DNA of 47,188 bases from an uncultured Porphyromonadaceae bacterium (GTDB lineage Bacteria; Bacteroidota; Bacteroidia; Bacteroidales; Muribaculaceae): assembly GCA_947174235.1 (NCBI GenBank), contig CAMWID010000020.1, forward strand, positions 1 through 47,188, given 5' to 3'. This document shows positions 8,989-26,866 of this stretch, one piece after another. The first letter of the stretch is position 1. Every line of letters starts with the position of its first letter. The position numbers were made by a program, and so were the translations under genes. The notes beneath the pieces are model-generated. The model made no database searches. It was given only the letters and a program-made list of their open reading frames with translations, and was not told the DNA's origin.

Positions 8989-11625
8989 ATGAAATGTCCG
9001 TTAATAGGGAAGTTGGAAGCAAAAGTAAGAAATTTGGGAAAACTATCCAAACATATCGTTTCAGTTTTATTTCCGTCATTCTCCAGACACAGATTGCATG
9101 CGGCGGCAATCTGCGGGCTGATGTGTCCGTGCGTCCAGGGTGCCCCAATGCCTGTAGGCAGGGTTACGGTCAATGTCACGGATTCCCTGACAGGAGAACC
9201 GCTCCCTTATGCCAATGTCAATTCCAGAACTGACGGCAGAAAGAATTTTGTTTCCGATGAAAAGGGAAGTTTCATTATCAAAGAGATTCAGAAGGGGGAA
9301 TGGGAAGTGACCTATGCCGGGTATGAACCGAAGGAGCTTCCATCTGTATGCGGTGATACACTGCTGAATATCACCCTTGTCCCGTCGGCTGTTGAATTGA
9401 CTGAGGTCGTTGTGCGTCCCGGGAAAGAGAGATATTCGAAAAAGAATAATCCTGCCGTGGAGTTTGTGAAGAAGATCAGAAGCCGGTCAAAAGAGTCCGA
9501 TCCGCTGAAAGAGCCGTTCTACAGTTACGACAAATATGAAAAGACAGTGTTGGGTCTTAATGATTTCAACGGAGATTTCTCAAAGGGCATTCTGTCCGGT
9601 CAGGGGCGCTTTATGGAAAACTATGTCGACACGTCATCATGGACCGGCAGACGCATACTTGACTTGATCTTCAAGGAAAAGGCGTCGACACGTCTTATAA
9701 GCCGGGATCCGGGGTGTGACAAAGAAGTGGTGCGCGGATACCGCAGCGCGGGGCTTGACGAGGTGCTGAACCAGGAGAATATACAGGTGATACTTGAGGA
9801 CGCCATACGCGAGGTGGACATATTTTCCAATAATATAGTGATACTTCAGAATCGGTTTGTAAGTCCGTTGGCGGCTATCGGTCCGGATTTCTATAAATAT
9901 TATCTCACAGACACGGTGTATGTGGGAGACACGCGTTGTGTGGAGCTGACGTTTGTCCCTCACAATCCCCAGACCATGGGATTCAACGGGAAGATATACG
10001 TTCCGGAGGGAGATTCCTCAATGTTTGTAAAGAAGGTCACGATGCGAGTGCCACAGGATATAAACCTCAATTATGTTGACAATCTTTTCATAAGCCAGTC
10101 GTATGAGAAAGATTCGTTGGGCAACCGCCACAAGACTTACGACGATGTATGCATAGAACTGCAGATCGTGAAGGGCACACCAAAATTATATGGCAGGAAG
10201 ATTACGGCATATGATAAATTCAGCTATAGCAAACGGAGGGATCTTGAAGATTACTATGACAGATCGGGACGTAACCTTGAGCTGGATGGCGCCAGGGCGC
10301 GGTTGCCGGAGTTCTGGACACCCGAAAGAATGGTGCCTCTGTCTTCCGCCGAATCAAGGATGGGAGGAATGATGAAAGAGATGAGGAAAGTGCCCGTGCT
10401 GTACTGGGGGGAGAAACTGCTGTCGCTGATGGAAAGCGGATATGTGCGCACCGGAAAGCCGAGCAAATTCGATTTCGGTCCTGTCAACACTATAGTGAGC
10501 TCCAATACGGTGGAGGGTGCGAGGTTTCGTGTCGGCGGAATGACGATGGCTCCACTCAATCCGCATCTTTTCGCGAAAGGGTATGTGGCATATGGCACCA
10601 AAGACCGCAAATGGAAATATAAGGGGGATCTCGAATATTCCTTCACTCCGAAGAAAAATCATTCTTATGAATGGCCGCGACACGGGGTATATGCCTCGTA
10701 TTCCTATGACCTTGACATGATAGGTCAGCATTACCTTTTTACGAATTCCGACAATATGTTTCTGTCGCTGAAGCGAAAGAAGAGCATACTGGTGACGTAT
10801 CGCCGTCTCGCCTCCGCAGGCTACATACTCGAGCTTCCCAACAATTTCTCGGTAGAGGCAGGTTTCAGGCATGAGATACAGGAGGCTACACGCTGGTTGC
10901 CGTTCGTATTTGCTGACGGAAGGTCGGAAAGCAGATATTCCCAGTCGGCATTCAGCATGTCGGTCAGGTGGGCTCCCGGAGAGAAATTCATACAGGGAAG
11001 GTCGCAGCGGGCACCTGTCAACATGGATGCCTGGATATTTCAGTTTACCCATGAATTCGGTCCGAAAGGATTTGCAGGGTCGGCATTCTGCCTCAACCGG
11101 AGCGAGCTTTCCATCCAGAAGCGGCTATGGCTTTCCGCTTTCGGCTACACGGATATCATTCTCAGGGCGGGAAAGATATGGAGCAAGGTCTATTATCCGG
11201 CATTGATGTGGCCCAACGCCAATCTGTCGTATACGATACAGCCGGAGAGCTATTCCCTGATGAACGCCATGGAATTTGCCAACGACCGTTATGCCTCCAT
11301 AGACTTCACATATTTCGGCAACGGCATACTGTTCAACCATATCCCGCTGATAAATAAACTGAAAATCCGCGAGGCATTCACGTTCAAGGGACTTATCGGC
11401 GGTCTTGACAAGAGAAACGATCCCTCATGCAACACAGACATCTACATGTTTCCCGCCGATGCCTCCCCGCGTATCATGACCTCCACCCCATATATGGAGA
11501 TCGGAGCCGGTCTTGACAACATATTTACGTTTCTGAGGGTGGATTATGTGTGGCGTCTGACATATCGGGATACGCCGGACTGTGACAAAAGCGGAATAAG
11601 AGTATCGCTTCATTTCTCATTTTGA
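8989..11625 (+). CDS. DUF5686 / carboxypeptidase-regulatory-like outer-membrane protein
   Basis: The protein has 878 residues. After an atypical N-terminal segment with a possible signal sequence (hydrophobic near 35-50), residues 55-135 form a CarboxypepD_reg-like beta-sandwich (VTVNVTDSLTGEPLPYANVN). The rest is a long beta-strand-rich region of the DUF5686 type ending in LHFSF, a typical terminal aromatic for outer-membrane insertion. The family is common in Bacteroidota and its function is unknown; there is no TonB plug. The start is uncertain because the N-terminus is unusually long and polar, but no better in-frame ATG precedes the sandwich. Confidence 0.82.
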   Translation: MKCPLIGKLEAKVRNLGKLSKHIVSVLFPSFSRHRLHAAAICGLMCPCVQGAPMPVGRVTVNVTDSLTGEPLPYANVNSRTDGRKNFVSDEKGSFIIKEIQKGEWEVTYAGYEPKELPSVCGDTLLNITLVPSAVELTEVVVRPGKERYSKKNNPAVEFVKKIRSRSKESDPLKEPFYSYDKYEKTVLGLNDFNGDFSKGILSGQGRFMENYVDTSSWTGRRILDLIFKEKASTRLISRDPGCDKEVVRGYRSAGLDEVLNQENIQVILEDAIREVDIFSNNIVILQNRFVSPLAAIGPDFYKYYLTDTVYVGDTRCVELTFVPHNPQTMGFNGKIYVPEGDSSMFVKKVTMRVPQDINLNYVDNLFISQSYEKDSLGNRHKTYDDVCIELQIVKGTPKLYGRKITAYDKFSYSKRRDLEDYYDRSGRNLELDGARARLPEFWTPERMVPLSSAESRMGGMMKEMRKVPVLYWGEKLLSLMESGYVRTGKPSKFDFGPVNTIVSSNTVEGARFRVGGMTMAPLNPHLFAKGYVAYGTKDRKWKYKGDLEYSFTPKKNHSYEWPRHGVYASYSYDLDMIGQHYLFTNSDNMFLSLKRKKSILVTYRRLASAGYILELPNNFSVEAGFRHEIQEATRWLPFVFADGRSESRYSQSAFSMSVRWAPGEKFIQGRSQRAPVNMDAWIFQFTHEFGPKGFAGSAFCLNRSELSIQKRLWLSAFGYTDIILRAGKIWSKVYYPALMWPNANLSYTIQPESYSLMNAMEFANDRYASIDFTYFGNGILFNHIPLINKLKIREAFTFKGLIGGLDKRNDPSCNTDIYMFPADASPRIMTSTPYMEIGAGLDNIFTFLRVDYVWRLTYRDTPDCDKSGIRVSLHFSF

Positions 11626-11671
11626 TTCCCTTGACAGTGAGTTCTCTATAAGTGCATGGGATGAGGTCTTA

Positions 11672-11718
11672 ATGGCTGCGCTTTCACTATAACCAAAGCA
11701 TAACAAAAGCGCAGCCAT
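11672..11718. terminator. Bidirectional terminator between DUF5686 gene and the ten-gene block
   Basis: Positions 11672-11684 pair perfectly with 11706-11718 (ATGGCTGCGCTTT against its complement), with a 21-nt loop. The hairpin lies between convergent stops at 11625 and 11724. The flanking U-runs are modest. Confidence 0.6.
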
Positions 11719-11723
11719 AAAAT

Positions 11724-13049
11724 TTATTTAAGATACTTTATCTTGTATTTTTTACTTCTTTTGTCGAAAGTAACGTCTCTTATGACTCCAAAATCGTCCG
11801 CCTGTTCTACGTCCATGAGAATTGGAGATCCTTGATTGTCGAAAGAATATATGATGACTTTCCTTTGTCCTAAGTAAGGATTTTTTATAATGAATGCAAA
11901 ATCCTGAATGCTGTCATACCCGTTTTTAAGATCCGGGAACGACACATTGTTATAGGAATAATATGGTCTGTTTTCAATTTTCCAATTTGAAACAGAGTCT
12001 TCAAGTACTTGAGGTGCTTGAGATTCAACAAAATCAAGAATGCCAAGGCGGAAAATGCTCTCACTAACCAATTTGCGTATCTCCTCATCGTCCCATACAT
12101 TGTCAAGCAATTTGAATCTGTCAGGAGAAAGAAGATATTTCCCCGCCACGTATCCTTGTTTCCCGTCAGCTTTGACTTTATACCATCCGTCATTCGAGTC
12201 TTCCATAATGAGCACGTCTGTGCCGTAGGGGAGAAGACATATGACGTTGTTCTCATCCTCGGAATCTTTTGAAGAGCGAAGAATTAGATTTTCCGCGAAA
12301 ACATTGCCGTGTGGCAGTTTTCTTTCATTGAGATAATCTTTGAGCCAGAACCAGTATATCCCGGCAAATAAAAGAATCATAAAAAACCAGAAGTTCCTTA
12401 CTTTACGTTTCGTTGCCTTCCTTTCAGCTTCTACCTTAAGTTTACGTTGCCTTTCAGCTTCTTCTTGCCGGCGCAGCCATTCGGCAGCCTCTTGCTGTTT
12501 CCAAAGTCTGTCTGCTTCCTCGCGCTCCTGACGTATACGTTCTTCTTCTTCTCTTTGCTTGCGCCTCCTTTCGGCTTCCTCATTTTCCTTACGTTGCCTT
12601 TCGGCTTCCTCATCCTTCTGTCGCTGCTGTTCTTCCTCTTTGCGTTTATTCTCTTCAATATTCTTTTCAATCTCCTTATATTTTAGAGAGAAATAATTCA
12701 GACTTCCGTTTTTGTCATTTTTTACAAGCAGATTGTAGAATTCAAATATTTCAGAATCATCGAGATCAAGAATTCTTTGAGCAAAACCGGTGGCAGCCAC
12801 TTTCATATCAAGATTTTCTCCTGAATCATTATATTCCTGCGCCTTGGAAATAATATCCGGGCAGCAGGACTCTTTTATCAGTTTGATAAAATCAGGATCC
12901 TCATTTTTCAGACATTCTATAATGACGCTGACAGATACGAGAATTCCCCAATATTTAGATATATTGGCATCGGAACGAGAAAGGATTGCCGCAAGGGTAT
13001 CAAGATCTTTTGATGATTTTGATGCTTTAAAAGTCAATACGGACGACAT
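11724..13049 (-). CDS. Membrane-anchored coiled-coil / SH3b protein (last gene of the TerY-P block)
   Basis: The protein has 441 residues and I know no named family for the whole. Residues 1-125 form an unrecognised helical domain. Residues 125-215 are an extremely charged Glu/Arg/Lys/Gln coiled coil built from imperfect EEAERQRK-type repeats. Residues 219-236 (FWFFMILLFAGIYWFWL) are a transmembrane helix. Residues 246-308 are an SH3b-like domain ending GWYKVKADGKQGYVAGKYLL, followed by a 130-residue C-terminal domain. The helical domain and coiled coil are probably cytoplasmic and the SH3b part periplasmic, where it might touch the cell wall. It follows hsp70 by 15 nt, so it could be the membrane sensor or effector of the block. 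Confidence 0.72.
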   Translation of the reverse strand: MSSVLTFKASKSSKDLDTLAAILSRSDANISKYWGILVSVSVIIECLKNEDPDFIKLIKESCCPDIISKAQEYNDSGENLDMKVAATGFAQRILDLDDSEIFEFYNLLVKNDKNGSLNYFSLKYKEIEKNIEENKRKEEEQQRQKDEEAERQRKENEEAERRRKQREEEERIRQEREEADRLWKQQEAAEWLRRQEEAERQRKLKVEAERKATKRKVRNFWFFMILLFAGIYWFWLKDYLNERKLPHGNVFAENLILRSSKDSEDENNVICLLPYGTDVLIMEDSNDGWYKVKADGKQGYVAGKYLLSPDRFKLLDNVWDDEEIRKLVSESIFRLGILDFVESQAPQVLEDSVSNWKIENRPYYSYNNVSFPDLKNGYDSIQDFAFIIKNPYLGQRKVIIYSFDNQGSPILMDVEQADDFGVIRDVTFDKRSKKYKIKYLK

Positions 13050-13064
13050 AAGAATCGGATTTGA

Positions 13065-14582
13065 TTAAACAATTTTAGTGGCGAGCAGCTTCCTTTTTTT
13101 CTCTATTTCTTCATCAGAATACATTCCTTTGTAGTCAAGTTCAAAATCAATTTTAACACCTTGACATTCACACCATATTTTTACAGTGGAATCAGACGAA
13201 CGGGAAACCACGACAGAGACTGTTGTGTGTGCCGGGACACCATACCCCCAATTGATGTCTCCGCTCCGGACAAGGGTGCATAAATCGGGATTGACATATT
13301 TTTCGGTCATTTTGTTTTCATAAATAGAAATATTGACCGAAGTCTGTCCGTCAAATGCCGTCTCAAACGTATGTTTGCTATCATGTATGAGATCATCAGT
13401 GCGAAGGATAATATTGGAAACAAAAAATTTATTTTTGTCATTGCAATCAATACAAAGGATCCCATATGATCTGCTGCCCATATCGTTGCCGATTTCAACT
13501 GAGGTCGTTTTATCTCCGGCAAGCCTGGACGCATGTAGCGCCGCCCCTTTAGCTACGGCAAGATCCGGCTCAAGATTGTCAAGCCTGATAGGGCAAGAGA
13601 ATATTTTTTTAAGTTTCTCTTTTACCATAGGCATGTAGGAAGAACCTCCGACAAGAATTATTTCATCGATATTTGCAGACGGATCGCGTGAGATGTTGAT
13701 GGCATGGTTTACAATGTTGATCGTTTTGTTCAATAAGTCTGCGGTGATTTCTTCAAAAAGAGACCGTGACACCTCACAGGTATATTGTTTTCTCTTATAG
13801 ACAAACTTGAACATTGCCTTGTCATTCTTTGACAATCTTTTTTTACACTGCTCTACATCATTCAGCATTTTTCCGGCATCCCGCTCATCTTTAATGTCGT
13901 TATAGGTTATATCAAGTCCGCAGGTGAGCAGTGCATAATCGAGGAGAGAAATGTCCCAATCAATACCTCCGAGCTGATGGTCGCCGTCGGTCGAAAGGGT
14001 ATCGAGCACTCCGTTTTTCATTCTCATTATGCTTACATCGAATGTGCCTCCCCCCAAATCATAAATCATGAAAGTTTTCCCTTCAAGTCCTTTGGTGCCG
14101 TAATTGAGTGCGGCAGCGGTTGGTTCGTTGAGAAGGTCCAATATCTCGATGCCTGCAATTTGAGCCGCCTGTTTGGTAAGTTCGCGTTCCATGTTTCCAA
14201 AATATGCGGGCACTGTCACCACAGCTTTTTTAATAGGATCTTTACCATCTTCCGACAATTGCTGATTTGCATCGTCAAACACTTTTTTAAGTATTAAAGC
14301 CGATGCATCGACAGGAGTCACAATCTGACCGTCGATATCCCTGGTATAGCCGGGTTTTGACATTTCTCTTTTTATAAAAGCCACTGACCGTTCCGGCTCG
14401 CCGTTCATGCTGTATTTTGCTTCTTCTCCAACAAAAACGCCATCCTCGTCTTCATAAAAAACCACAGAGGGTGTAGTGTTTTTCCCTTCAAGATTTTTAA
14501 TGACCGTAGGAAGCCCGTCTTCCCCGATTGTGGCAATACATGAGTTTGTGGTGCCGAGATCTATTCCATATATAGGTTCCAT
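13065..14582 (-). CDS. Hsp70-family chaperone lacking the helical lid
   Basis: The protein has 505 residues, against about 640 for DnaK. The ATPase domain is intact: IDLGTTNS (7-14), the conserved lysine in FIKRE (K71), VPAYFGNMERELTKQAAQIA, DLGGGTFDVS (175-184) and GGSSYMP near 322. The interdomain linker lacks the hydrophobic VLLLD-type motif of DnaK. The beta-sandwich substrate domain remains but is followed only by about 20 residues (DEEIEKKRKLLATKIV), so the alpha-helical lid is missing. It would bind clients without the usual lid latch. It lies between a GrpE-like gene and the SH3b gene, so it is a dedicated Hsp70 rather than the housekeeping DnaK. Confidence 0.92.
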   Translation of the reverse strand: MEPIYGIDLGTTNSCIATIGEDGLPTVIKNLEGKNTTPSVVFYEDEDGVFVGEEAKYSMNGEPERSVAFIKREMSKPGYTRDIDGQIVTPVDASALILKKVFDDANQQLSEDGKDPIKKAVVTVPAYFGNMERELTKQAAQIAGIEILDLLNEPTAAALNYGTKGLEGKTFMIYDLGGGTFDVSIMRMKNGVLDTLSTDGDHQLGGIDWDISLLDYALLTCGLDITYNDIKDERDAGKMLNDVEQCKKRLSKNDKAMFKFVYKRKQYTCEVSRSLFEEITADLLNKTINIVNHAINISRDPSANIDEIILVGGSSYMPMVKEKLKKIFSCPIRLDNLEPDLAVAKGAALHASRLAGDKTTSVEIGNDMGSRSYGILCIDCNDKNKFFVSNIILRTDDLIHDSKHTFETAFDGQTSVNISIYENKMTEKYVNPDLCTLVRSGDINWGYGVPAHTTVSVVVSRSSDSTVKIWCECQGVKIDFELDYKGMYSDEEIEKKRKLLATKIV

Positions 14583-14603
14583 GTCTGTTAAGTTTTTATT
14601 AAG

Positions 14604-15575
14604 TTATAAAGATTTATCTTCAGGACAATATTTTATTTTAACCACTTCTTCCGGTCTCACTATGAATGAGAACATTTGTGGCATTCTGTTTTCTTCGAGG
14701 ATTTTGTTCAGTTTCACTTCTGAATTTATCACAAGATATGGTATTGACCATTCATATCCCGGTGCCACACTTTTATATACACCGTCAAGAAGAGGATCGG
14801 AAGTATGTTCTGTATCCACTACTTGCTGACGCCGTCTGTTCAGTTGTTTTGGATCTTCTGCAGACTCCGTGAAACACCTTACAGAATTGTTGGAGAGAGA
14901 TGCGTGTACACTTTTTTCAAGATCCTTTACAGCAGACAGAATGTCATAGTTTTCAACATTCTCGGAATCCTCGATTATCATCCTGATGCGGTCCGCGACA
15001 TCGATGAGCTCCATGATCAAATTTCTTTGAGTTTTGTAGATAACGTCATCGTTATATTTTAGAAGAGAATCGTGGAGTTTCTTGATGGTCTTTTCCTGGG
15101 AGAGCAGAACCTTTTCCGTATCATTAAGATTGTTGAGACATGCAATAATATCCTTATTGCTTTTTTCATTCTCTTTTATTATCGTGAACAGATTTTGCTG
15201 TCTGGTCATGATTAACTTGGAGATTGAATTTAGCTCATTGATTTTGTTGATCAAAACGTCATTATCCTTTTTATTTTCTCCGATCTCAGATATAGAATCT
15301 GAGCGGTCATTATAAAAGGCTGTATCATATTGATTCGGGGGGAAATGCAAAGTCCCAGCAGTTGACATGCTTTCTGACGGTTCAGATGTTTCCTGGTCGG
15401 TGTCATTGGAATTTGCAAAACTTCCTTTTCCGTTTTCGTTATCTTCAATTGAATAAATTATAGAAGAATCATCATCTCTGACATCCCGGTCATGACCATT
15501 TTTGTCGGGCTTATCCGTATTGTCGTTAGAGCTTTTGGATGTTTGTTTACCAAAGTTTATAAAAGGAAATTCCAT
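14604..15575 (-). CDS. Divergent GrpE-like nucleotide exchange factor (predicted)
   Basis: The protein has 323 residues. Residues 1-100 are low-complexity, rich in Ser, Asn and Asp, and probably disordered. Residues 100-185 form a long coiled coil. Residues 185-235 (ELIDVADRIRMIIED, then VKDLEKSVHASLSNNSV) follow the hydrophobic pattern of the GrpE helical bundle. Residues 240-290 (DP, GVYKSVAPGYEWSIPYLV, SEVKL) resemble the beta-wing of GrpE, which ends in a Gly-Tyr and a V-rich strand. The order of long helix, bundle and wing matches GrpE, and the gene is 21 nt upstream of hsp70, where an exchange factor is expected. Identity is too low to be sure by eye. Confidence 0.62.
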   Translation of the reverse strand: MEFPFINFGKQTSKSSNDNTDKPDKNGHDRDVRDDDSSIIYSIEDNENGKGSFANSNDTDQETSEPSESMSTAGTLHFPPNQYDTAFYNDRSDSISEIGENKKDNDVLINKINELNSISKLIMTRQQNLFTIIKENEKSNKDIIACLNNLNDTEKVLLSQEKTIKKLHDSLLKYNDDVIYKTQRNLIMELIDVADRIRMIIEDSENVENYDILSAVKDLEKSVHASLSNNSVRCFTESAEDPKQLNRRRQQVVDTEHTSDPLLDGVYKSVAPGYEWSIPYLVINSEVKLNKILEENRMPQMFSFIVRPEEVVKIKYCPEDKSL

Positions 15576-15616
15576 AAATAACTGTTTTTAGGTTTTAGAT
15601 ACTTTTTGATTGCGGT

Positions 15617-16510
15617 TTATTGTTTGCGACCGTTTTCCCATGTTTCTTCAATGATACCTCCGTCAGTTAAGAATCTTATACAATATCCGTCAGGTCCTGA
15701 AGAAGTCATTTTCCCATATATTATGCTTCCGTCTTGAAGCAGATATATTCCGCGATTTCCGGAAAGCTTGCCATCGGAATAGAAAGCCAACATCTTCTCT
15801 CCGTTAGGAAAGAAAAGAATCCCCGTGCCATCTTCACGGTTGTTGCGCCATTGCCCGGAATAGCAAGAGCCGTCAGGATAACTGGCTGTGCCTATACCGT
15901 TTTTCCTGTTAAAACGATATTCTCCGGCATATTTCTGTTTGCCATGAGAGTGTTCGATTCCCATTCCGTTGCGCATTCCTATTTTCCATTCACCGGCGAA
16001 CAATCCGTTATTTTCAATTTGAGATATCCCGAACCCGGACTTTCTTCCCTCAGAATCAAAATTTCCAATATAGGTTCCATCTTCAGAAGCTGTCATATCG
16101 AAAGGATTTTTGTTTTTCCTGTTTAATTCAAGCTCCGGATTGTAGGGTAGAGGTTCTTCATCTAATTCAAGGGCATATAGGAAAGAGTTTACCATATAGT
16201 CCGCTATCCCTTGTATCAGAAAATTGTCTTCCTGAAAAGCGTGACGTAGATTGTTAAACTTTATAGAGTATTCACTTTCGTCACCTTCTCTAATAGAAAT
16301 GATTTTATTGCCTAATCTGTAGCTGACAGCTAAAGATAGCACATTCATTATCTTGCGGGAAGAGTCATTCCCGAAATCAGACATCAGAGAATATAATCTT
16401 CGGTCTGTGATAACTTCCTCTCCAAATTGGAGTATCACAGATCGAAAAATGTCATGAAATTCACTATTGCCGTTTATCCCCACTTCAACAGGGTCAAGAT
16501 CATTCTTCAA
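15617..16510 (-). CDS. MORN-repeat protein
   Basis: The protein has 297 residues. Residues 1-135 are an unrecognised helical domain. From about 145 there are five or six MORN repeats with the Gly-x-Phe/Trp...Gly-x-Gly pattern: GTYIGNFDSEGRKSGFG, GLFAGEWKIGMRNGMG, QKYAGEYRFNRKNGIG, SCYSGQWRNNREDGTG, and weaker ones after these. MORN repeats form beta-hairpin stacks that act as protein or lipid scaffolds. The gene sits between the GrpE-like gene (41-nt gap) and the phosphatase gene (31-nt gap), so a scaffold joining phosphatase and chaperone is plausible but inferred. Confidence 0.8.
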   Translation of the reverse strand: MKNDLDPVEVGINGNSEFHDIFRSVILQFGEEVITDRRLYSLMSDFGNDSSRKIMNVLSLAVSYRLGNKIISIREGDESEYSIKFNNLRHAFQEDNFLIQGIADYMVNSFLYALELDEEPLPYNPELELNRKNKNPFDMTASEDGTYIGNFDSEGRKSGFGISQIENNGLFAGEWKIGMRNGMGIEHSHGKQKYAGEYRFNRKNGIGTASYPDGSCYSGQWRNNREDGTGILFFPNGEKMLAFYSDGKLSGNRGIYLLQDGSIIYGKMTSSGPDGYCIRFLTDGGIIEETWENGRKQ

Positions 16511-16541
16511 TTTAAAAGTCGGTATTGATATTTTTAGACAA

Positions 16542-17945
16542 TCAGGATTCCGGAATGTTTTCTAATGAAGATTCATCAGCATCGCATGATGAAGAATCAA
16601 GGGGAGCGCATGAGGCGATTTTTGCCAACTGATCGTTAAGCGACTTATAAATCTCTTTATTCTCAAGTTCCCATTGTTTAAAGTGTTCAGAAAGCCGGTC
16701 GATTTCATCTGAAACTTTAGCTGCCTCTTCTTTTTTCAGAACCAGACCGGTTTTCAGCAGTTTAATAGATTCTTCTTCCGTTTTTTTCTTCTGAACAATA
16801 GAGTTCAGCCATGCAGAGAAAGACCGGTCTTTCTCTCCGATTTTTTCTTCAAGATCTTTGATCCCGTCTTCAATTTCGTTTTTCTGAACAGTCAGTTTCC
16901 TTAGCTTCTCTTCCAATTGCCTTTTTTCAGAATCAATCGCATTGATTTTTTTCTTTATAGAGAAAGACTCAACGGCATTTGGAAGCGTATCCATGTCGAG
17001 GATGGCAGCTATAGTCATATCGTCTCTACTTCCCTTACGGCTCATTTCAGGAAGATACTCTTCTAATTCTTTTGTAGCGGTATCAGCTCCGAGCCGATTG
17101 AAAATGGAAAGGGTTTCAGAGTAGAAATCGGCAAGGTTTTCAATAGTTCCCCATGAATCATCTATTCCATCCGAGCCTAAAAAGACAGCGGTAGGAAAGT
17201 CTCCTCTGCCGCTGAAGGCGTAGCGAAACATTCTGACAGGTTCAGTATTGCATAAGGATGTTGTGACATTTAAAAAGCAGTTACAATCCCAGGGCACGGG
17301 TTCAGACCAATTCATTGAGCGGTCGAAAGCTACCATTTTACCGTCGCCTATTTGAAAGGCAAACCAGTAATCGGGAGTTCTGACAAAAGCCATGAGTGTA
17401 GATCCGTAAGCTTTGACGATTTTGTTGTTTCCCAAGGTGGATTTTTCATCCTCATTCAAGGGATTTTCAGCAGTATACTTATCTAATGCATCCACCCATT
17501 GCAGATAGATAGAGCCGAAAAGACGTTTGAATATTGCCTCTTCCTCCTGCAGATCTTTTACAGCATCGTAATAAGCTTTATCCTGCTCAAGCTGCTCGGT
17601 TTCAGACTCTGAAAGATTTGTAGTGTTCCTTTTCCCTTGCATAGGGAAGAGGTTGTCCTCTATAGTATAAGGCGCGGCGGTGACTTGACCAGATTTCCCT
17701 GCAAAAAAATCTTTAGGAATATTAGAGACAAAAGACTTTATATTTTCAAGAGCTATTTCGCAAGCAAGTCTGGACCCGACATCGCTTCTGACGTATGTCT
17801 TGCTACCGTGTCCGTCAGCGATCACAACCGCATGAATGGAATTATCATCAGAAGTCCAATTCAGCGAATAGTCCTGACATGGCTTTCCGGATCCGATATG
17901 GCTGTAACCTTTGACAGATATATTGAAATTGAAAATGTCTACCAT
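16542..17945 (-). CDS. PP2C-type serine/threonine phosphatase with C-terminal coiled coil
   Basis: The protein has 467 residues from the ATG at 17945; an upstream ATG at 17963 adds six. I choose 17945 because the small neighbour (18036-18296) starts identically relative to the shared FNFNIS segment. The metal-dependent phosphatase motifs, counted from the longer form, are ADGHGSKTYVRSD (D50), a GDG near 207, SDGIDD near 264-269 and SRDDMT (D314/D315), so the catalytic core looks complete. The core has an acidic insertion at about 80-170. From about 330 to the end is a Lys/Glu-rich coiled coil, unusual for PP2C. It is the presumed antagonist of the kinase at 19191-20486. Confidence 0.9.
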   Translation of the reverse strand: MVDIFNFNISVKGYSHIGSGKPCQDYSLNWTSDDNSIHAVVIADGHGSKTYVRSDVGSRLACEIALENIKSFVSNIPKDFFAGKSGQVTAAPYTIEDNLFPMQGKRNTTNLSESETEQLEQDKAYYDAVKDLQEEEAIFKRLFGSIYLQWVDALDKYTAENPLNEDEKSTLGNNKIVKAYGSTLMAFVRTPDYWFAFQIGDGKMVAFDRSMNWSEPVPWDCNCFLNVTTSLCNTEPVRMFRYAFSGRGDFPTAVFLGSDGIDDSWGTIENLADFYSETLSIFNRLGADTATKELEEYLPEMSRKGSRDDMTIAAILDMDTLPNAVESFSIKKKINAIDSEKRQLEEKLRKLTVQKNEIEDGIKDLEEKIGEKDRSFSAWLNSIVQKKKTEEESIKLLKTGLVLKKEEAAKVSDEIDRLSEHFKQWELENKEIYKSLNDQLAKIASCAPLDSSSCDADESSLENIPES

Positions 17946-18288
17946 ATTTTTTTTGATAAGCATTGTTATTGGGCGAATCCAGATAAAACTTATGAAATCT
18001 CTACCTGAATAGTGATTCGCTACCTTATTATTGTATTAATCCCAACAGTCGAATGCCGAATGGGAATCATCACGTGCTGATATATCTACATTTATATCAA
18101 TATTTTCCGAGTTAAGGTTGGAGCTAAGTCGGTTTTGTAAATCTTCGCAAAAACTTTCGTCTGAAAAATCCCAATCTTCATTTTTTGATGTCGAGTCATG
18201 TCTATGAGAGATTTCAGGATTAAAAGAAATACATTTTAAAAGTTCTTTAAGGTTTTCTCCTGTTATGGATATATTGAAATTGAAAATG
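17917..18288. repeat. 21-bp direct repeat encoding the shared FNFNIS N-terminus
   Basis: GATATATTGAAATTGAAAATG occurs at 17917-17937 and again at 18268-18288. It encodes the IFNFNIS segment at the start of both the PP2C protein and the small acidic protein. The short downstream CCATAT, which includes both start codons, is also shared. It points to duplication of a gene start. Confidence 0.8.
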
Positions 18289-18296
18289 AGTCCCAT
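18036..18296 (-). CDS. Small acidic protein sharing its N-terminus with the PP2C phosphatase
   Basis: The protein has 86 residues and no known family is recognised. It begins MGLIFNFNISITGENLKELL, nearly the same as the phosphatase start MVDIFNFNISVKG, and the underlying DNA is identical over 21 bp. The remainder is strongly acidic and Ser-rich (DWDFSDESFCEDL, DINVDISARDD) and ends SAFDCWD. It lies between the VWA gene (76-nt gap containing a hairpin) and the phosphatase gene (72-nt gap). The acidic Ser-rich body could be a kinase/phosphatase substrate or inhibitor; this is inference. Confidence 0.68.
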   Translation of the reverse strand: MGLIFNFNISITGENLKELLKCISFNPEISHRHDSTSKNEDWDFSDESFCEDLQNRLSSNLNSENIDINVDISARDDSHSAFDCWD

Positions 18297-18330
18297 ATCA
18301 ATTATTATAAAATTATTATCGAAAGTTTAA

Positions 18331-18361
18331 CACAGGCAGAAATTTTTGGTTCCTGCCTGTG
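18331..18361 (-). terminator. Intra-operon hairpin between VWA and small acidic protein genes
   Basis: CACAGGCAG (18331-18339) pairs with CTGCCTGTG (18353-18361) around a 13-nt loop, in the widest gap of the ten-gene block. On the minus strand it follows the VWA stop by about 12 nt and is followed by an AT-rich stretch. It could be a partial terminator or RNA-processing site lowering expression of the phosphatase and chaperone genes relative to the kinase side. Confidence 0.5.
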
Positions 18362-18372
18362 CGTCAATCTCA

Positions 18373-19152
18373 TTAACCCCATCCGGAGTCAGACCAGTCA
18401 GATTCTGTGGTTGCCGGGGCGTCAACTCCGATTTCCACTTTCTTCAAATCCTCATTTGTTTCAAGTCCATTTTTTAAAGTTTCGGAAAATTCCTCTTCTT
18501 TGGAAGCCGGAGCTTCTTTACCTACAGAAGAACTTGAACTCTGAATCTGGGTTGAACTGACTGTGACAAATCTTATAAGATCTTTGAGAGTGTCACGGTC
18601 TTTCACGGTAAGTACAAGTTCCGAACTCTTTGTAAATTTGCCGAGAACCTCCTGATAGTTGTCTTCAGTCCTTCCGATACCGACAGCTATTTTAATTGCA
18701 TATTTGAACCAATTGTTTTTCCAAAGGTTTTCCACTTCTCTTTCCCAATTATCATTAGGCATCCCATCAGACAGAAGAATGATTACAGGAGCATAAGAAC
18801 CTGTGGCATTTTTCATATATCCATTGGATCGCGATAATTTGCTATTGAGTTCGTGACATGCCTCTCCAAAAGAGGTTGCACCTTTTGCAACTAAATCTCT
18901 CCATTCGAAAGACTCCACATCTAACGGTTCGGGATACATCCACTCCACGCCGGTGGCGAATTCAAGGCATGCCATCTTGATCATGGCATCAGAGTTTTTT
19001 TGGGCTATTTCTCTTAGTTCCGGAATTGTCTCTCTGACCGCTACATTCACGGATCCAATTTTATCACCTTCCATGCTTCCGGAAGAATCGACTAAAAAGA
19101 AAACAGTCATGACTCTCCGAGGTATTCCTTTTACTTCTTCAAAAACACTCAT
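18373..19152 (-). CDS. TerY-type VWA domain protein
   Basis: The protein has 259 residues. Residues 14-200 are a von Willebrand factor A domain with an intact metal-ion-dependent adhesion site: DSSGSM (D22), the threonine of GATSFGEA near 95, and SDGMPND near 135. This matches TerY of the tellurium-resistance-associated TerY-P triads, where a VWA protein is encoded with a PP2C phosphatase and a kinase. The C-terminal tail (about 205-259) is acidic, Ser-rich and ends SDWSDSGWG. The protein has no signal peptide, so it is cytoplasmic, probably a metal-dependent adaptor. The kinase gene lies 38 nt upstream. Confidence 0.88.
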   Translation of the reverse strand: MSVFEEVKGIPRRVMTVFFLVDSSGSMEGDKIGSVNVAVRETIPELREIAQKNSDAMIKMACLEFATGVEWMYPEPLDVESFEWRDLVAKGATSFGEACHELNSKLSRSNGYMKNATGSYAPVIILLSDGMPNDNWEREVENLWKNNWFKYAIKIAVGIGRTEDNYQEVLGKFTKSSELVLTVKDRDTLKDLIRFVTVSSTQIQSSSSSVGKEAPASKEEEFSETLKNGLETNEDLKKVEIGVDAPATTESDWSDSGWG

Positions 19153-19190
19153 ATCTGAAATATTTAGATTGTTTAAATTGGGAATTTATA

Positions 19191-20486
19191 TCACACTTTT
19201 ATTGTCCCTGTTGAGTCTTTGTTAAATTTTATTTTCACTCCGGGAATTACAGGAACAACTCCTTGATGAGGGATAAGCCTAAATTTTCCATCCGGAGGGA
19301 TTGCCTGCCATTCAAAAGATGAAAGGTTTCTGATTGCCTTTTTTGTCGGATCCTGAAGATTAGAGAGGATTTCCCCAATCACTTTGCCGTAGTCCTTATC
19401 TGGAGACACTTGACATGAGTATATCTTTTGATGATGTGTCAGAGGTATTCTGTATCTTCCAACTTCAAGGAATGGAACGTGTCTGAAAGGTTTTCCGCAT
19501 TCTATACATTTAGATACATCAGCTGTCAGGTCGTGGAATGTCTCTTTCCCACAGAGCGGACATTTAGCATACATTGCTCTGACTTGTACCAGCCGGTCCA
19601 ACCATTCTTTCTCCATGACTCTTTTTTCGGGGTGATGCATAGCATCTTTTGAAAAGGTCTTTATAAAAGCATCCCTTATCAATGATGGGAATAGGGGCCA
19701 ACGCTGTATTACATTTGTGTGTATTCCGTTGACCGGACGGTTGGAATTGTCAGAGGGATCAAGGATAAATACAGAATTTTTACCATTAAGGATTTTTTCA
19801 GCTTCTGTGGTAAGACACGGACAAGAAATAGCTTTGGTACCCTCGAACGGGCGGTTCATAAAAATGAGAATGAAGAGAATGACAGACAAGGAGAAATAGT
19901 CTGTGTAGATGTCGGGAAGCTTTTCGCCATCAACTATTTCCGGAGCCATATATCCACCTTTTCCTGCAATTCCCATATTCGTTCCATGTGGTGCGACATT
20001 ATCATTATCGCATATGAGAACATGCCCTGTCTGCGGATTTATGAAGAAATTGCCGTCGTTCATGTCCTGATAGCTATATCCCAGGATATGAAGCTGCTGG
20101 AATGCTGAACAAATTTGCAGACATGCATCAAGAAGAATTTTTACTGATGCAAATTTTACCTTTGCCAGCATAAAGGCACTTAATTCTTCGTAACCTTTAG
20201 GTCGTAGTTTCATGACATACCCAAAGCTTCCATTCGATTTCTCAGTCACAGCTTCGGGCCAAAGAAAATTAGGGGCCGGTGTTCCTTTTTTAGCATTCTC
20301 TTCCAGATTGGAATAAAAAGCATTTGCGTTTATGAAATTCTGGGTGTACCATTTCAGGGCATAGTCATGACCTTGATAATCTACCTGATAGACTATTCCT
20401 TGACCGCCTCTGCCCAATTCTTTTTTTACAGTGCACGAGGATCCGTTTCTGAGCTTGACCTTCGTGCCGGGAGTTAATTCTGCCAT
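19191..20486 (-). CDS. Serine/threonine protein kinase with zinc ribbon (TerY-P triad kinase)
   Basis: The protein has 431 residues. The kinase domain spans about 12-295: glycine loop GRGGQG (25-30), VAIK-type lysine in YALKWY (K45), catalytic loop SYQDMNDGNFF in place of HRDxKxxN (D141, N146), and APE at 181-183. The DFG motif is replaced by DND (160-162), keeping the Mg-binding Asp. At about 310-345 there are two CxxC pairs (CPLCGKETF and CIECGKP), a zinc ribbon, and the C-terminal 80 residues are beta-rich. There is no transmembrane helix. It is the likely writer opposing the PP2C eraser; the substrate is unknown. Confidence 0.88.
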   Translation of the reverse strand: MAELTPGTKVKLRNGSSCTVKKELGRGGQGIVYQVDYQGHDYALKWYTQNFINANAFYSNLEENAKKGTPAPNFLWPEAVTEKSNGSFGYVMKLRPKGYEELSAFMLAKVKFASVKILLDACLQICSAFQQLHILGYSYQDMNDGNFFINPQTGHVLICDNDNVAPHGTNMGIAGKGGYMAPEIVDGEKLPDIYTDYFSLSVILFILIFMNRPFEGTKAISCPCLTTEAEKILNGKNSVFILDPSDNSNRPVNGIHTNVIQRWPLFPSLIRDAFIKTFSKDAMHHPEKRVMEKEWLDRLVQVRAMYAKCPLCGKETFHDLTADVSKCIECGKPFRHVPFLEVGRYRIPLTHHQKIYSCQVSPDKDYGKVIGEILSNLQDPTKKAIRNLSSFEWQAIPPDGKFRLIPHQGVVPVIPGVKIKFNKDSTGTIKV

Positions 20487-20513
20487 ATTATATTGTATTT
20501 TAGGAAATCATAA

Positions 20514-20876
20514 TCAGAGATCTGTTCCGGAAATTTCGAAAGAGTCGGCAAAAGTGAAGCCACCTTCCTTTCCGCAAACCGGACATTTTCCCCAATCCGC
20601 AGTATGATGCACGCATACAAATCTTTTGCATCCGCCGCATTTGTACCATGTGTCGTTGCCACAATGAGGGCAGCCCGGAAATTCGGGACCGTCGTAAATA
20701 TTGCCCGACACTTTATTTTTGTCAAAACCTTCCCTTTTTGCTGTGGAGTCAGACATCTTAAACGCCCATTTGAAAGTGATCGCGTCTTTTTCAATGAGAG
20801 CTGTAATGCCGAAAGGCTTACCGGTTTTTTGGCATACTGCCGGAACTATAATCTCGTTTCGTTTTGGATTTTTCAT
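20514..20876 (-). CDS. TerY-C-like zinc-binding protein
   Basis: The protein has 120 residues. The N-terminal half (about 8-40) is a small beta domain with QKTGKPFG. The C-terminal half has seven cysteines: C69/C72 (GCPHCGN), C80/C83 (YKCGGCKRF), C88 followed by two histidines, then C98/C101 (KCPVCGKEG). This matches the TerY-C metal-binding domain, which is usually fused to or encoded beside TerY VWA proteins. Here it is a free-standing gene, 27 nt upstream of the kinase. It may be a metal sensor or a docking subunit for the VWA protein; the role is inferred from association. Confidence 0.8.
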   Translation of the reverse strand: MKNPKRNEIIVPAVCQKTGKPFGITALIEKDAITFKWAFKMSDSTAKREGFDKNKVSGNIYDGPEFPGCPHCGNDTWYKCGGCKRFVCVHHTADWGKCPVCGKEGGFTFADSFEISGTDL

Positions 20877-20897
20877 GATGGTTCTATGTCAGGATGG

Positions 20898-21602
20898 TTA
20901 TTTATTGTTGATGAAGGCTGCGAGATCCTTAATTGATTTTTTTTTGTGGTATAAGGACAGTATACTCCTGAATCCATCTCCGTAAACAGGATCGGGATTG
21001 TCATACAAGTTTTGAATCAAAATCTTTGATAAAGGGGTATTGGCAGAAGTATATACAAGCCATGAGCCAAGATTGCAGAGTCCTTCTTCAAGATTCAACG
21101 ATAGCTTTAAGTTCTTGATATCAACCCAGAGATGAATAAGTTCATGAGCAAGAACACCCGCGAATTGCAACTTGGGGAGCATGTTGAATATGTAAATTGA
21201 AGAAGTTGTTTTTTTGAAAGGATATATTCCTGATGTCGAGATAGTGTTAAGCCCCCTGTTGTGGAGATCCACGCAAGACTTTCCTGTGAGCACACTCATT
21301 TCCTCGGGAGATACTATCTTTATGGGAACATTTGAAGGCAAGCTGTCAAATCCATTTGAGGCAAGTATGGCGCGGGTCTTTTTATCTACCCATCTGATAT
21401 GTTCGGGAAGGCATACTGTTGTTGACAGGCATGAGCTGCAGATATGTCTTCCATCTGACAGGCTAAGATCAGACGGCATTGTGAATCTGCCGCAAGCATC
21501 GCATAAAGGAGCATTGTGGCGGTCGCAGATTGCGTTTCCCCACAGATCCTTTTTGTAGATACCTGTTATGGTGTTGTCACAGATAATACATCTCATATTC
21601 AT
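20898..21602 (-). CDS. LIM-like zinc finger / DA1-like metallopeptidase
   Basis: The protein has 234 residues; ATGs at 21602 and 21596 are both possible starts. Residues 5-58 carry paired ligands C5/C8, C26/H29, C34/C37 and C55/C58, a LIM-like double zinc finger. Residues 145-205 contain LAHELIHLWVD, an HExxH zinc-peptidase motif (153-157), followed by LEEGLCNLGSWLVY, whose Glu (172/173) would be the third ligand, then DPVYGDGFR. LIM plus HExxH...EEG is the layout of DA1 proteases, best known in plants as ubiquitin-activated peptidases. It is the first gene of the ten-gene block, so proteolysis is probably part of the response. Confidence 0.8.
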   Translation of the reverse strand: MNMRCIICDNTITGIYKKDLWGNAICDRHNAPLCDACGRFTMPSDLSLSDGRHICSSCLSTTVCLPEHIRWVDKKTRAILASNGFDSLPSNVPIKIVSPEEMSVLTGKSCVDLHNRGLNTISTSGIYPFKKTTSSIYIFNMLPKLQFAGVLAHELIHLWVDIKNLKLSLNLEEGLCNLGSWLVYTSANTPLSKILIQNLYDNPDPVYGDGFRSILSLYHKKKSIKDLAAFINNK

Positions 21603-21656
21603 GCCATCAGGTTAAATTGTTAACTGGGATGACACAAAAAAACGTGGACTCATTCA

Positions 21657-21713
21657 GTTGTCTGTTCCACGTATCGAGGCTCTTGCACTGCCTATCAAAG
21701 ATGAACAGACAAC
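21657..21713. repeat. 11-bp perfect inverted repeat in the leader
   Basis: GTTGTCTGTTC (21657-21667) is the reverse complement of 21703-21713, with 35 nt between. In the predicted minus-strand leader it would form a stem-loop about 55 nt before the first start codon of the ten-gene block. Confidence 0.65.
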
Positions 21714-21720
21714 GTTAGAA

Positions 21721-21997
21721 CCCACGCCGATATGATAATGCAACTGTAGTTTTATCACAATGGTAAAACTGCACTTCCATCAGCGCAGTCTTACCCCAAG
21801 CGACAAAACACAGGTGTATGTACACCATACCCGTGGCATCTACCGTTGCTATGTCCAAGACTTTGATGATCGAGAGGTTGCAAGATTCCGATACGTCTTA
21901 AACAAAGAAAGCGAGTAAACGCCTTTATCATGTCTGATACATCCCGCCGCACTCCTTCAGTGGCAAATATTTAGGAGCCAACTGACATCGGCGTGGG
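21721..21997. repeat. 11-bp inverted repeat enclosing a 255-bp segment
   Basis: CCCACGCCGAT (21721-21731) is matched by ATCGGCGTGGG (21987-21997), with some further partial matching outside. Both arms are GC-rich in an AT-rich region. They could be ends of a small mobile or invertible unit, or a long-range RNA stem in the leader. Confidence 0.6.
21760..21918 (+). CDS. Possible 52-residue small ORF
   Basis: A plus-strand frame starts ATG at 21760 and stops at 21918, giving a basic peptide beginning MVKLHFHQRSLTPSDKTQ and ending RYVLNKESE. It is enclosed by the inverted repeat 21721-21997 and runs opposite to the predicted leader of the ten-gene block. The composition is protein-like, but no family or promoter is recognised. 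It may be a gene remnant. Confidence 0.25.
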   Translation: MVKLHFHQRSLTPSDKTQVYVHHTRGIYRCYVQDFDDREVARFRYVLNKESE

Positions 21998-22051
21998 CTT
22001 GATGATTTGATATAAAATATTGATAAAATCATTCAAGCGTTGTATCGTCCA

Positions 22052-22083
22052 CAAAGTTAATAATATGAATTGAATAATGCAAA
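22052..22083 (-). promoter_or_regulatory. Promoter for the ten-gene TerY-P/Hsp70 block
   Basis: On the minus strand TTTG (22083-22080), a 20-nt spacer and TAACTTTG (22059-22052) match the Bacteroidota consensus exactly. Transcription would start near 22045, giving a leader of about 440 nt before the DA1-like gene at 21602. No other consensus promoter was seen in the block. Confidence 0.65.
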
Positions 22084-22279
22084 TGATTAAATAAAAATTT
22101 TGTTTTTTTGGCAGAAAAATGAAAAAATGTCAGTACAATAGTCCGCGATAGCAAGTGGAATCTAACATTTTTGTGGATTAGGCATCGCTGATGTGATCAG
22201 ATGTCTCCTGACCTTTTTTCAAGAAATTTAGATGAAACATCCGTTTGAACTGAACAATGTAACCTGATGTCGCATTTTA

Positions 22280-22507: not shown

Positions 22508-23200
22508 GTGATTGAATCACGAAAATCCATATTAATGTATATACTGCCAATGTCTTCCAGGTTTAAGATGATGGCATTCAATCTTATGGTCTGGGTATAT
22601 CTGATTCCATATCTTACAACGTTTGCCGTTTCTGCCCAGAATAAGAGTTGTGATGACTGCTATCCCCGCATCGGGATAAAGACCAATCTTTTGCACGATG
22701 TAGTTCTGACGCCGGATGTTGGCATAGAGGTATCTGTCGCCAAAAAGTTTTCTTTGAGTCTGGAAGGGGTATATGCGTGGTGGAGCAACGATAGCCGCCA
22801 TCGTTATTGGCGAGTGAGAGGTGGTAGTCTGGAGATGAGGATATGGCTTGGGGAAAACCATAAAGAGCGTGCCATGTCGGGACATCACGTAGGGGTTTAT
22901 GGATCAGTACATGACTATGATTTCGAGTTCGGCGGCAAAGGCTGGCAGTCTCCTGACGCTACGTATGGCGCCGGTATCAGCTATGGTTTCGCTATCCCGA
23001 TAGGGGAAAGATTGAATCTTGATTTCGGAATCAAGGCGGGTTATTCGGGGGGCAGCATTATACGTTACCGTCCGGAATGCGGCAGTTATACAGGACTGAA
23101 CAAGACATTCCATAAATATGTGGGAGTCACGGGTCTTGAGGTGACATTGGTATGGTTTCCAGGCAGACATCATAAGAACAATCCGAATTTCGGCATATGA
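22508..23200 (+). CDS. DUF3575 family protein (fimbrial operon)
   Basis: The protein has up to 230 residues. ATGs at 22508, 22535, 22550 and 22568 are possible; 22550 would put the signal peptide (hydrophobic LMVWVYLIPYLTTFAVSAQ) close to the N-terminus. The mature part shows the DUF3575 signature: IGIKTNLLHDVVLTPDVGIE, EGVYAWWSNDSRHRYWRV, YDFEFGGKGWQ and YGFAIPIGERLNLDFGI. The alternating strands predict a small outer-membrane beta-barrel. Such proteins are commonly encoded beside fimbrillin clusters in Bacteroidales, and the stop overlaps the next start by 4 nt (ATGA). Confidence 0.85.
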   Translation: MIESRKSILMYILPMSSRFKMMAFNLMVWVYLIPYLTTFAVSAQNKSCDDCYPRIGIKTNLLHDVVLTPDVGIEVSVAKKFSLSLEGVYAWWSNDSRHRYWRVRGGSLEMRIWLGENHKERAMSGHHVGVYGSVHDYDFEFGGKGWQSPDATYGAGISYGFAIPIGERLNLDFGIKAGYSGGSIIRYRPECGSYTGLNKTFHKYVGVTGLEVTLVWFPGRHHKNNPNFGI

Positions 23201-24153
23201 AAAATATATCCTCAAATATCATCAGTGCTCTATTGTTTGTGTCGCTTGCGTCGTGCGAACACAAGGATATCATGTGGCCGGGCGAGTCAGTGCGTGAGGT
23301 CACGGTGAAATTTGAATGGGATAATGCTCCGGACGCGGATCCGGAAGGTATGAGCCTTTATTTCTTTCCTCAGTCTCCTTATGGGGAGGTGTGGAAGTTT
23401 GACATAACCGGACGTGAGGGTGGCACGGTTGAACTGCCAACCGGCGATTATCAAATGGTTGCATATAATACAGGAGTGCAGGGAGTGAAAATAGAAGGCA
23501 CGGATTCCTATGAAAGCATAATGGCAGCTGCCATGTCTACAGGCAAGGAAGAAGTGGTAACACCTGTCGGCACCATGTATGGCGCCACTGTCAGTCATAT
23601 TGAGGTTACGGAATGCGGGGTGAGATACATCACTTCCGCCGGCACCATAAAGGAATGCGGTCAAAGTCTGGTAAGATGCAGTCCTGACTCCATTACCACA
23701 GATTATACAGTGATTGTGAAAAATGTGGAGGGTACGGCAGGTGTCTCGACAGTGAGAGCTTATCTCGAAGGTGTTGGTTCCGGGATATTTTTGTCGGATT
23801 TAAATGTGTCCGGAGTGCCATCGACTGTTGCGTTTCCCTTGTCTGTAGATAATGACCATAATCTGTTTTATGGCAAGTCATGCGCCTTTTCGTCTTTCGG
23901 GAAGAGAAATAGCTATGATCTCCAGATAGCCGTCACGTTTTCAAATCATAAGACGATAGCCCGCAAATATGATGTGACAGCGCAAGTTGTGAACTCTCAT
24001 TCCATGCGGAATGTTCTAATAATAGTTGACGGACTATCGATTCCACACCCCGGTGACCCGGATTATCCGGATGATGACATAGGGGGAATAGACACCGATG
24101 TAGAAGGATGGGTTACAATAGAGACCGATATTCTTGTTGACATCATTCCCTGA
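23197..24153 (+). CDS. DUF5119 family lipoprotein (fimbrial accessory)
   Basis: The protein has 318 residues. The N-terminus ends in the lipobox LASC, so it should be a lipoprotein. The mature part begins with VTVKFEWDNAPDADPEGMSL and YFFPQ, then GGTVELPTGDYQMVAYNTG, the pattern of DUF5119/FimB-like fimbrial proteins. Those proteins form the tip or anchor components in Bacteroidales fimbria loci. The acidic C-terminal tail has PDYPDDDIGG. The start overlaps the DUF3575 stop, and the fimbrillin gene follows 47 nt later, so the three form one operon. The exact structural role is inferred from the family. Confidence 0.8.
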   Translation: MKNISSNIISALLFVSLASCEHKDIMWPGESVREVTVKFEWDNAPDADPEGMSLYFFPQSPYGEVWKFDITGREGGTVELPTGDYQMVAYNTGVQGVKIEGTDSYESIMAAAMSTGKEEVVTPVGTMYGATVSHIEVTECGVRYITSAGTIKECGQSLVRCSPDSITTDYTVIVKNVEGTAGVSTVRAYLEGVGSGIFLSDLNVSGVPSTVAFPLSVDNDHNLFYGKSCAFSSFGKRNSYDLQIAVTFSNHKTIARKYDVTAQVVNSHSMRNVLIIVDGLSIPHPGDPDYPDDDIGGIDTDVEGWVTIETDILVDIIP

Positions 24154-26862: not shown

Positions 26863-26866
26863 CATT

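Follow-up and report, generated by a model that had tools for sequence, protein, structure and literature searches.

A Bacteroidales operon joining a TerY-P phosphorylation triad to a private Hsp70 cassette behind a giant-hairpin leader RNA

The 47,188-nt stretch of DNA analyzed here (the window; contig CAMWID010000020.1 of GCA_947174235.1, from a member of the Muribaculaceae, Bacteroidales) contains an operon of ten minus-strand genes, g1 to g10, between positions 21602 and 11724, in which a TerY-P triad of protein kinase, VWA protein and PP2C phosphatase is joined to a cassette encoding a MORN protein, a GrpE-like protein and an Hsp70 distinct from the cell's own DnaK, hereafter the private Hsp70. 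Triad and cassette occur together, in the same order and on the same strand, in four loci (the window, L015, L016 and L017), all in Bacteroidales and with Hsp70 identities of 48–65%, and the operon block is an accessory insertion with a clean empty site in a sister species. Judged from sequence, the operon looks like a recombination of known modules, a variant of bacterial conflict systems, because both of its halves have been published as themes of GAP1-N2 systems. We give about an even chance to the reading that it is an accessory conflict system, most likely anti-phage, in which the TerY-P switch would control a private Hsp70-GrpE-MORN complex.

All ten open reading frames (ORFs) were found where a preliminary description of this DNA had placed them, with gaps of 15–76 nt (from g1 to g10: 21, 27, 38, 76, 72, 31, 41, 21 and 15 nt). 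The names it had given the genes hold as well, in that eight proteins pass Pfam cut-offs (DA1-like, TerY_C, Pkinase, VWA, PP2C_2, MORN, HSP70 and SH3_3), the GrpE-like protein stays below the cut-off and is supported in relatives, and the small acidic protein of 86 residues has no match. The first gene, g1 (20898–21602), encodes a DA1-like zinc peptidase with the motifs AHELIHL and EGLCNL and three CxxC pairs (Pfam 3.9e-11, alignment A8), followed by g2 (20514–20876), a TerY_C zinc protein (Pfam 8e-7), g3 (19191–20486), a protein kinase with catalytic motifs and a C-terminal zinc ribbon, CPLC...CIEC (Pkinase 1.8e-14, alignment A3), g4 (18373–19152), a TerY-like VWA protein with a metal-ion-dependent adhesion site (MIDAS) motif (Pfam 1.1e-7), g5 (18036–18296), the small acidic protein, and g6 (16542–17963), a PP2C phosphatase with metal-binding motifs and a C-terminal coiled coil (PP2C_2 1.1e-33). 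The chaperone cassette comprises g7 (15617–16510), which starts with TTG and encodes an N-terminal region and MORN repeats (Pfam 2e-11, alignment A7), g8 (14604–15575), the GrpE-like protein (Pfam GrpE 1.9e-3, homologs, alignment A1), and g9 (13065–14582), the private Hsp70 (Pfam 1.2e-92, alignment to DnaK). The last gene, g10 (11724–13049), encodes a charged coiled coil, one transmembrane stretch assigned by eye, and an SH3b domain (SH3_3 3.7e-7). For g5, no counterpart was found in L015–L017, and its only match, to a CARF model, is at chance level (0.031).

The assignment of the VWA, PP2C and kinase genes to a TerY-P triad, already made in the preliminary description, is borne out by Pfam matches and by motifs. 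The glycine loop, the lysine, YQDMNDGN and DND are present in the kinase, DGHG, SDG and RDD in the phosphatase and DSSGS in the VWA protein, and the three genes are neighbors, contiguous save for g5, which is the arrangement that defines TerY-P. The zinc-ribbon cysteines of the kinase, C309, C312, C327 and C330, are invariant in the seven rows of A3, and in 8 of the family's 15 kinase loci, window included, the kinase is preceded by a TerY_C-type gene. In the DA1 alignment (A8; 14 rows: the window, 8 of 74 database hits and five locus genes) the downstream Glu and six Cys are invariant and the first His of HExxH is kept in 13 rows (P0063 reads AQELLH); the window protein is intact. DA1 is not bound to the triad end of the operon: it lies 3' of Hsp70 in L016 and L018, was not found in L014 and L015, and in L083:6352–10350 and L084:8673–12895, where Hsp70 is lacking, comes directly after a triad-like PP2C that is itself preceded by a kinase.

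The private Hsp70 has 505 residues, compared with 633 in the cell's own DnaK, which is encoded on another contig; the two share 32% identity in the alignment with private Hsp70s and 38% over the matched part in a genome search. Alignment to DnaK (2v7y) reveals that the ATPase motifs GTTNS, GGGTFDVS and GGSS are kept, the lid is missing and part of the substrate-binding β-domain is present. The VLLLD interdomain linker is absent in all 19 private Hsp70s aligned (window and 18 others). No J-domain (DnaJ) Pfam match was obtained among the ten operon proteins; a J-protein may be encoded elsewhere in the genome. Given how DnaK works, a linker unable to dock argues against a J-driven folding cycle. 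Since lid, VLLLD linker and operon J-protein are missing while the ATPase motifs are kept, a role of g9 as a nucleotide switch or scaffold is likelier than one as a foldase. In its GrpE-like neighbor g8, the N-terminus is variable and the C-terminal half strongly conserved; some relatives match PF01025, L098 with a GrpE score of 8.2e-11, and a profile search of the PDB matched three non-GrpE proteins, two of them designed Syn-F4 constructs, giving no support for GrpE identity.

To trace the recurrence of the join, a pair of peptide patterns from the GrpE alignment was run against 84,980 species genomes, giving 20 stretches and six confirmed loci (L032, from G370, is by map the same contig as L017 and was counted once). 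The gene order is kinase-VWA-PP2C-MORN-GrpE-Hsp70-SH3b/Sel1 in L015, kinase-VWA-PP2C-MORN-GrpE-Hsp70-DA1 in L016 and DA1-kinase-VWA-VWA-PP2C-MORN-GrpE-Hsp70 in L017, so that the association of Hsp70, GrpE and MORN with the triad, proposed from the window, reappears in three other Bacteroidales loci and withstands the refuting condition set for it in the preliminary description. L018 has MORN-GrpE-Hsp70-DA1 on a contig that begins just before MORN, and L019 has GrpE-Hsp70 without MORN or triad. In L014:1289–9009 the triad is replaced, and the cassette is preceded by a 567-residue protein, a radical SAM protein, a 496-residue protein and an AAA/AAA/trypsin protein. MORN-GrpE-Hsp70 cassettes are thus present in six loci, window included, four with the triad, one with the AAA/trypsin module and one cut by its contig; the triad accompanies four of the five whose upstream side is visible, and DA1 four of the six.

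Phylogeny places the private Hsp70s in a 17-member clade (support 100/99) that excludes both the cell's DnaK and two Hsp70-VWA fusions. Classes A and B and L019 stand together at 100/99, and L014 nests with L015 at 99/98, which favors reading its lack of the triad as a module swap within the Hsp70 clade.

GrpE profile A1 identified 6 of 149 family genomes, window included, and the window alone among 393 genomes of the order; the wider profile A2 identified 20 of 397 family genomes, of which 18 carry other kinds of locus. Among these 20 loci the triad is present in two, the window and G370, and in none of the other 18 within the stretch fetched, less than 1 kb upstream of GrpE lying on the contig in L034, L085, L087 and L093, where a triad may lie beyond the contig end. 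Fifteen of the 18 have an Hsp70 alongside, in four loci of class B (GrpE-Hsp70-MORN2), eight of class C and three of class D (GrpE-Hsp70-SH3b); L035, L088 and L089 have none and belong to no class. Class C (L036, L085, L086, L087 and L091–L094) is of the DO-GTPase/GAP1-N2 kind, with GrpE, two Hsp70s and a zinc-ribbon protein; of the loci tested, L085 has DO-GTPase2 and an Hsp70-VWA fusion and L036 has GAP1-N2, and the contig of L094 ends after GrpE and a single Hsp70.

Two unrelated units, one of triad, TerY_C and DA1 and the other the chaperone cassette, could have been inserted together as chance neighbors, as the cassette without triad in L014 and the triad genes without cassette in L020–L022, L083 and L084 would allow; the shared order and strand in four loci at such divergence, the absence of a triad from the stretches fetched around the 18 other GrpE genes, and the short gaps make this very improbable.

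The 15 family kinase loci come from 14 of 247 family genomes. The kinase subfamily adjoins BREX genes in L080 (BrxL, PglZ and a SIR2 protein) and lies beside or near defense-type helicases in L077, L078, L021 and L082; of the remaining family loci without the cassette, L083 and L084 have DA1 alone and the others stand beside genes of no assigned kind. In the kinase tree, for which a long-branch warning applies to L023, L082 and L084, the four chaperone-linked kinases and that of L075 group at 92/95. Several triads of this subfamily adjoining restriction and helicase genes, together with the lack of a TerD or TerB domain match among the ten proteins, also speak against a metal or tellurite stress response of the Ter kind, in which the zinc ribbons of TerY_C, the kinase C-terminus and DA1 would act as metal sensors. 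The TerY_C match and the zinc ribbons fit such a response, as does the idea, published earlier and cited in PMC11090510, that a phosphorylation switch senses metal; on balance we regard it as improbable. Downstream of the triad at L073:2098–3519 is a gene for a 473-residue radical SAM protein with a viperin-like PADLOC match (4.2e-12), and L074 has a gene of the same length at a like place. The window's own genome contains a distant VWA/VWA/VWA/PP2C/kinase cluster (L023, G000:C25, 779–7253), which is too distant to be a copy of the operon's kinase locus.

Between promoter and g1 lies a structured leader of ~440 nt, on which the preliminary description was silent. It includes a hairpin of ~290 nt, matched by covariance model R1 at 21636–21926 on the minus strand (188.7 bits, the window itself being in the model), whose end, a terminator-like stem with a U-run, lies 33 nt before g1; the fold predicted for a 429-nt leader is a single giant hairpin (−156.8 kcal/mol, z −8.35). 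The predicted promoter, noted in the preliminary description as one consensus promoter and read from the sequence at 22083–22052 on the minus strand, consists of TTTG (22083–22080), a 20-nt spacer and TAACTTTG (22059–22052), which would be boxes of the Bacteroidota type. Of 24 leader copies, 22 have a TAnnTTTG box in the 180 nt before them, compared with 2.47 expected from base shuffles. The Bacteroidota-type box alone was used because a sigma-70 promoter scan fell within the chance range of shuffles (32 versus 27.9, s.d. 5.4). An inverted repeat, GGCTGCGCTTT..AAAGCGCAGCC, follows g10 at 11674–11716 and is a probable terminator; a terminator scan gave 12 matches, within the chance range of shuffles (9.1, s.d. 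3.1).

Structural conservation of the leader was assessed in alignments A4 and A5 (24 rows; L122 and L128, which are cut, L126, which is near L125, and L127 were omitted). RNAalifold gives 34 pairs, 23 of them with at least one double change. A second helix, formed by GUUGCUCGUUC and GRACGAGCAAC of the terminator loop, competes for a strand that also belongs to a consensus stem. This helix has 94.6% of its cells paired and shows both-side changes in 6 of 11 pairs, a number reached by 9 of 500 shuffles, and its covariation score is reached by none of 500, the shuffles ignoring relatedness. Alternative structures of this sort are required for an attenuator and, short of proof, the leader may be attenuator-like.

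DNA relatives of the leader were detected in 21 of 149 family genomes, window's included, and in 13 of 30 genera. Profiles of its arms, built from the window and 20 relatives' loci and applied to loci chosen for their proteins, locate it just before the first gene of the operon in L014, L019, L072, L073 and L075, giving 6 of 30 start regions tested with the window included. In 796,464 bases of 50 loci the covariance model gives six strong matches, all at operon starts and all part of the model, five having been found earlier by the arm profiles; three weak rows (E 0.012–0.089) were omitted. By chance ~2 matches would be expected in these bases and ~0.02 in the 30 start regions, and a fair null of other accessory operons would give a higher figure. 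In 12 genomes chosen for triads or for site comparison (35.7 Mb, best 150 candidates scored per genome), the model has at least 90 matches, 2–16 copies each. Across the order, other families included, at least 45 of 247 genomes match at 1e-10 with the best eight candidates scored per genome, the matches of 160–170 nt near E 1e-14 being possibly chance hairpins. The window and 18 loci with leader copies have no match in Rfam 15, and no leader-like RNA was found in the literature searched, including the portion of PMC8040213 covered, whose supplements with thousands of candidate RNAs lay outside the search.

An ORF start, by mechanical ORF calling, lies 38–85 nt after the hairpin in 26 of 40 leader copies fetched from family genomes. 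We scanned 70 proteins encoded after leader copies (up to two per copy, 150–1300 residues). Among the matches listed (25 of 39 families for Pfam, 25 of 73 for PADLOC), the Pfam families are LRR_5 (11), Big_2 (8), SNF2/helicase (3) and Mfa2, Fimbrillin_C, DUF3575 and DUF4391 (2 each), with single matches to DNA methylase, Fic and nuclease domains, and PADLOC gives DrmD-like/HmaA helicases (3), a type III methyltransferase (1) and SspB (1). In view of the genes after its other copies, the leader marks accessory surface and defense operons rather than this system. It may be a larger discovery than the operon and, if confirmed, would suggest a way in which Bacteroidales silence the long operons they acquire and would offer a finder for unknown accessory systems.

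The boundaries of the block (11626–22230) follow from comparison with the sister species G698, which has genes matching window 8989–11625 and 22508 onward (77% protein identity each), the matched ends 534 bp apart, and further neighbors in the same order. Nucleotide similarity stops at the stop codon at 11625 and restarts at ~22231, hence ~10.6 kb are extra in the window. Guanine-cytosine content is 0.38–0.43 inside the block, 0.45–0.54 in the left 11 kb and 0.41–0.47 in the 4 kb that follow on the right; the higher AT content noted in the preliminary description therefore contrasts sharply with one flank only. At the same site behind a DUF5686 gene, another relative carries 5.3 kb (L119:8143–13490) that include an M16 peptidase gene and a 564-residue protein without family. 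A TPP riboswitch is located at window 26754–26877 on the plus strand.

A fimbria-type operon (DUF3575/DUF5119/Mfa_like) adjoins the insertion at 22508–25301 on the plus strand, which raises the alternative of quality control in envelope stress or surface assembly, where the SH3b protein would read the cell wall, kinase and PP2C would relay the signal, and Hsp70/GrpE with DA1 would handle a client such as fimbriae or adhesins. The SH3b domain and transmembrane stretch of g10, the frequent position of the leader family ahead of adhesin-like genes (among the matches listed) and the class D GrpE-Hsp70-SH3b loci, which show no triad, agree with this proposal. The fimbrial neighbors are, however, also kept in the sister species without the block, the nearest triad relatives are in defense loci, and the Hsp70 is without the linker used in DnaK-type allostery; we consider the envelope proposal unlikely, though less so than the metal response.

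Several observations weigh against an anti-phage system built around a triad-chaperone join. The operon's PADLOC matches to other systems are partial throughout, the main ones linking the kinase to PD-T4-6 and Mad6 models, and the four flanking genes that were tested (DUF5686 and the fimbrial operon) include no defense gene. Relatives of g8 were not found in viral contigs, plasmids or phages, and no search was made for integrases. Simple motif patterns missed the MIDAS in both L017 VWA proteins and SDG in the L016 PP2C, so intact motifs are claimed for the window enzymes and not for every relative. The cassette stands at only 2 of the 15 kinase loci (window and G370), the contig ending at or soon after the triad in 4 of the 13 others (L072, L075, L077 and L079), where a cassette may lie beyond the contig end; as four of five cassettes have the triad, the join is a minority arrangement among triads, yet the usual one for the MORN-GrpE-Hsp70 cassette. 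The kinase grouping stays below 95 bootstrap, and the L075 genome (97% complete) has no such Hsp70 and, its presence in the searched set being deduced from its handle, no such GrpE, so that this kinase counts against a strict kinase-chaperone link. Neither arm profiles nor covariance model found the leader before the operons of L015, L016 and L017, hence it is no fixed part of the triad-chaperone system, and surface genes (LRR_5, Big_2, fimbrial) outnumber defense genes after leaders among the matches listed.

If the operon is such a conflict system, either the Hsp70/GrpE/MORN complex or the membrane SH3b protein would have its phosphorylation state set by kinase and PP2C. Instead of a foldase driven by DnaJ, the Hsp70 would be an ATP/ADP-gated switch, or a scaffold for assembly, that its own GrpE resets; the DA1 protease, where present, would be an effector or activator let go by the switch, and the leader RNA would hold the operon down until read-through is allowed. 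A bolder version, which we put forward tentatively and hold to be rather less probable than the conflict system as such, is a new type of immune system, in which a TerY-P phospho-switch would gate a J-independent Hsp70/GrpE/MORN switch that frees DA1 or a membrane effector, expressed through an undescribed family of giant-hairpin attenuators acting as a shared Bacteroidales gate for defense and surface operons.

Long leaders with NusG/UpxY-type antitermination precede surface operons of Bacteroides. The window leader resembles them in being a long leader ahead of accessory operons, and one leader copy (L124) precedes a NusG-like gene; it differs in having its own conserved structure, and the likeness is not based on sequence. 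Like the DnaK-GrpE-DnaJ machine, the window has an Hsp70 ATPase domain, part of the substrate-binding β-domain and a GrpE-like partner, whereas its Hsp70 is without lid and VLLLD linker and its operon without J-protein. A clade of Hsp70s that retains ATPase motifs and a GrpE-like partner without the allosteric linker, in the window also without lid and J-protein, is a natural test of what an Hsp70 can do in their absence.

TerY-P, described in the portion of PMC11090510 considered here as VWA, PP2C and kinase-zinc ribbon associated with restriction systems and CoCoNuTs, protects P. aeruginosa against phage, most cells surviving and some dying, according to part of PMC10889362. The window shares with it the triad, contiguous save for g5, the kinase with C-terminal zinc ribbon and a TerY_C protein alongside, and differs in the joining of the triad to MORN-GrpE-Hsp70, SH3b membrane protein and DA1 protease and in having no restriction or helicase partner in the operon. 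CoCoNuT type III-A, as presented in the same portion of PMC11090510, likewise combines TerY-P and an Hsp70-like domain in one operon; the ten window proteins, however, have no match to McrB GTPase/CnuC, McrC/DUF2357 or HEPN, and the window Hsp70 retains the ATPase motifs and is accompanied by a GrpE-like protein.

Both halves have a parallel in GAP1-N2/DO-GTPase systems. In the part of Kaur et al. 2020 (PMC7159879) considered, HSP70 with GrpE forms theme 2 and kinase-zinc ribbon with PP2C and vWA theme 3 of three GAP1-N2 themes that are called non-overlapping, and SH3 domains and membrane spans are mentioned for these systems. The claim in the preliminary description that no described system has this gene set is therefore upheld for the combination, which is not described in the literature searched, and qualified for its halves, both of which are published. 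The window has no DO-GTPase or GAP1-N2 Pfam match among its ten proteins; it shares with these systems the linked HSP70 and GrpE (the latter below the Pfam cut-off), and the eight class C loci of the family pair GrpE with an Hsp70 of this kind. In contrast to the published separation, both themes stand in one window operon. Modules that the literature presents as non-overlapping partners of GTPase conflict systems can thus be coupled without an intermediary, which points to a physical link between them, with kinase and phosphatase acting on the Hsp70 switch.

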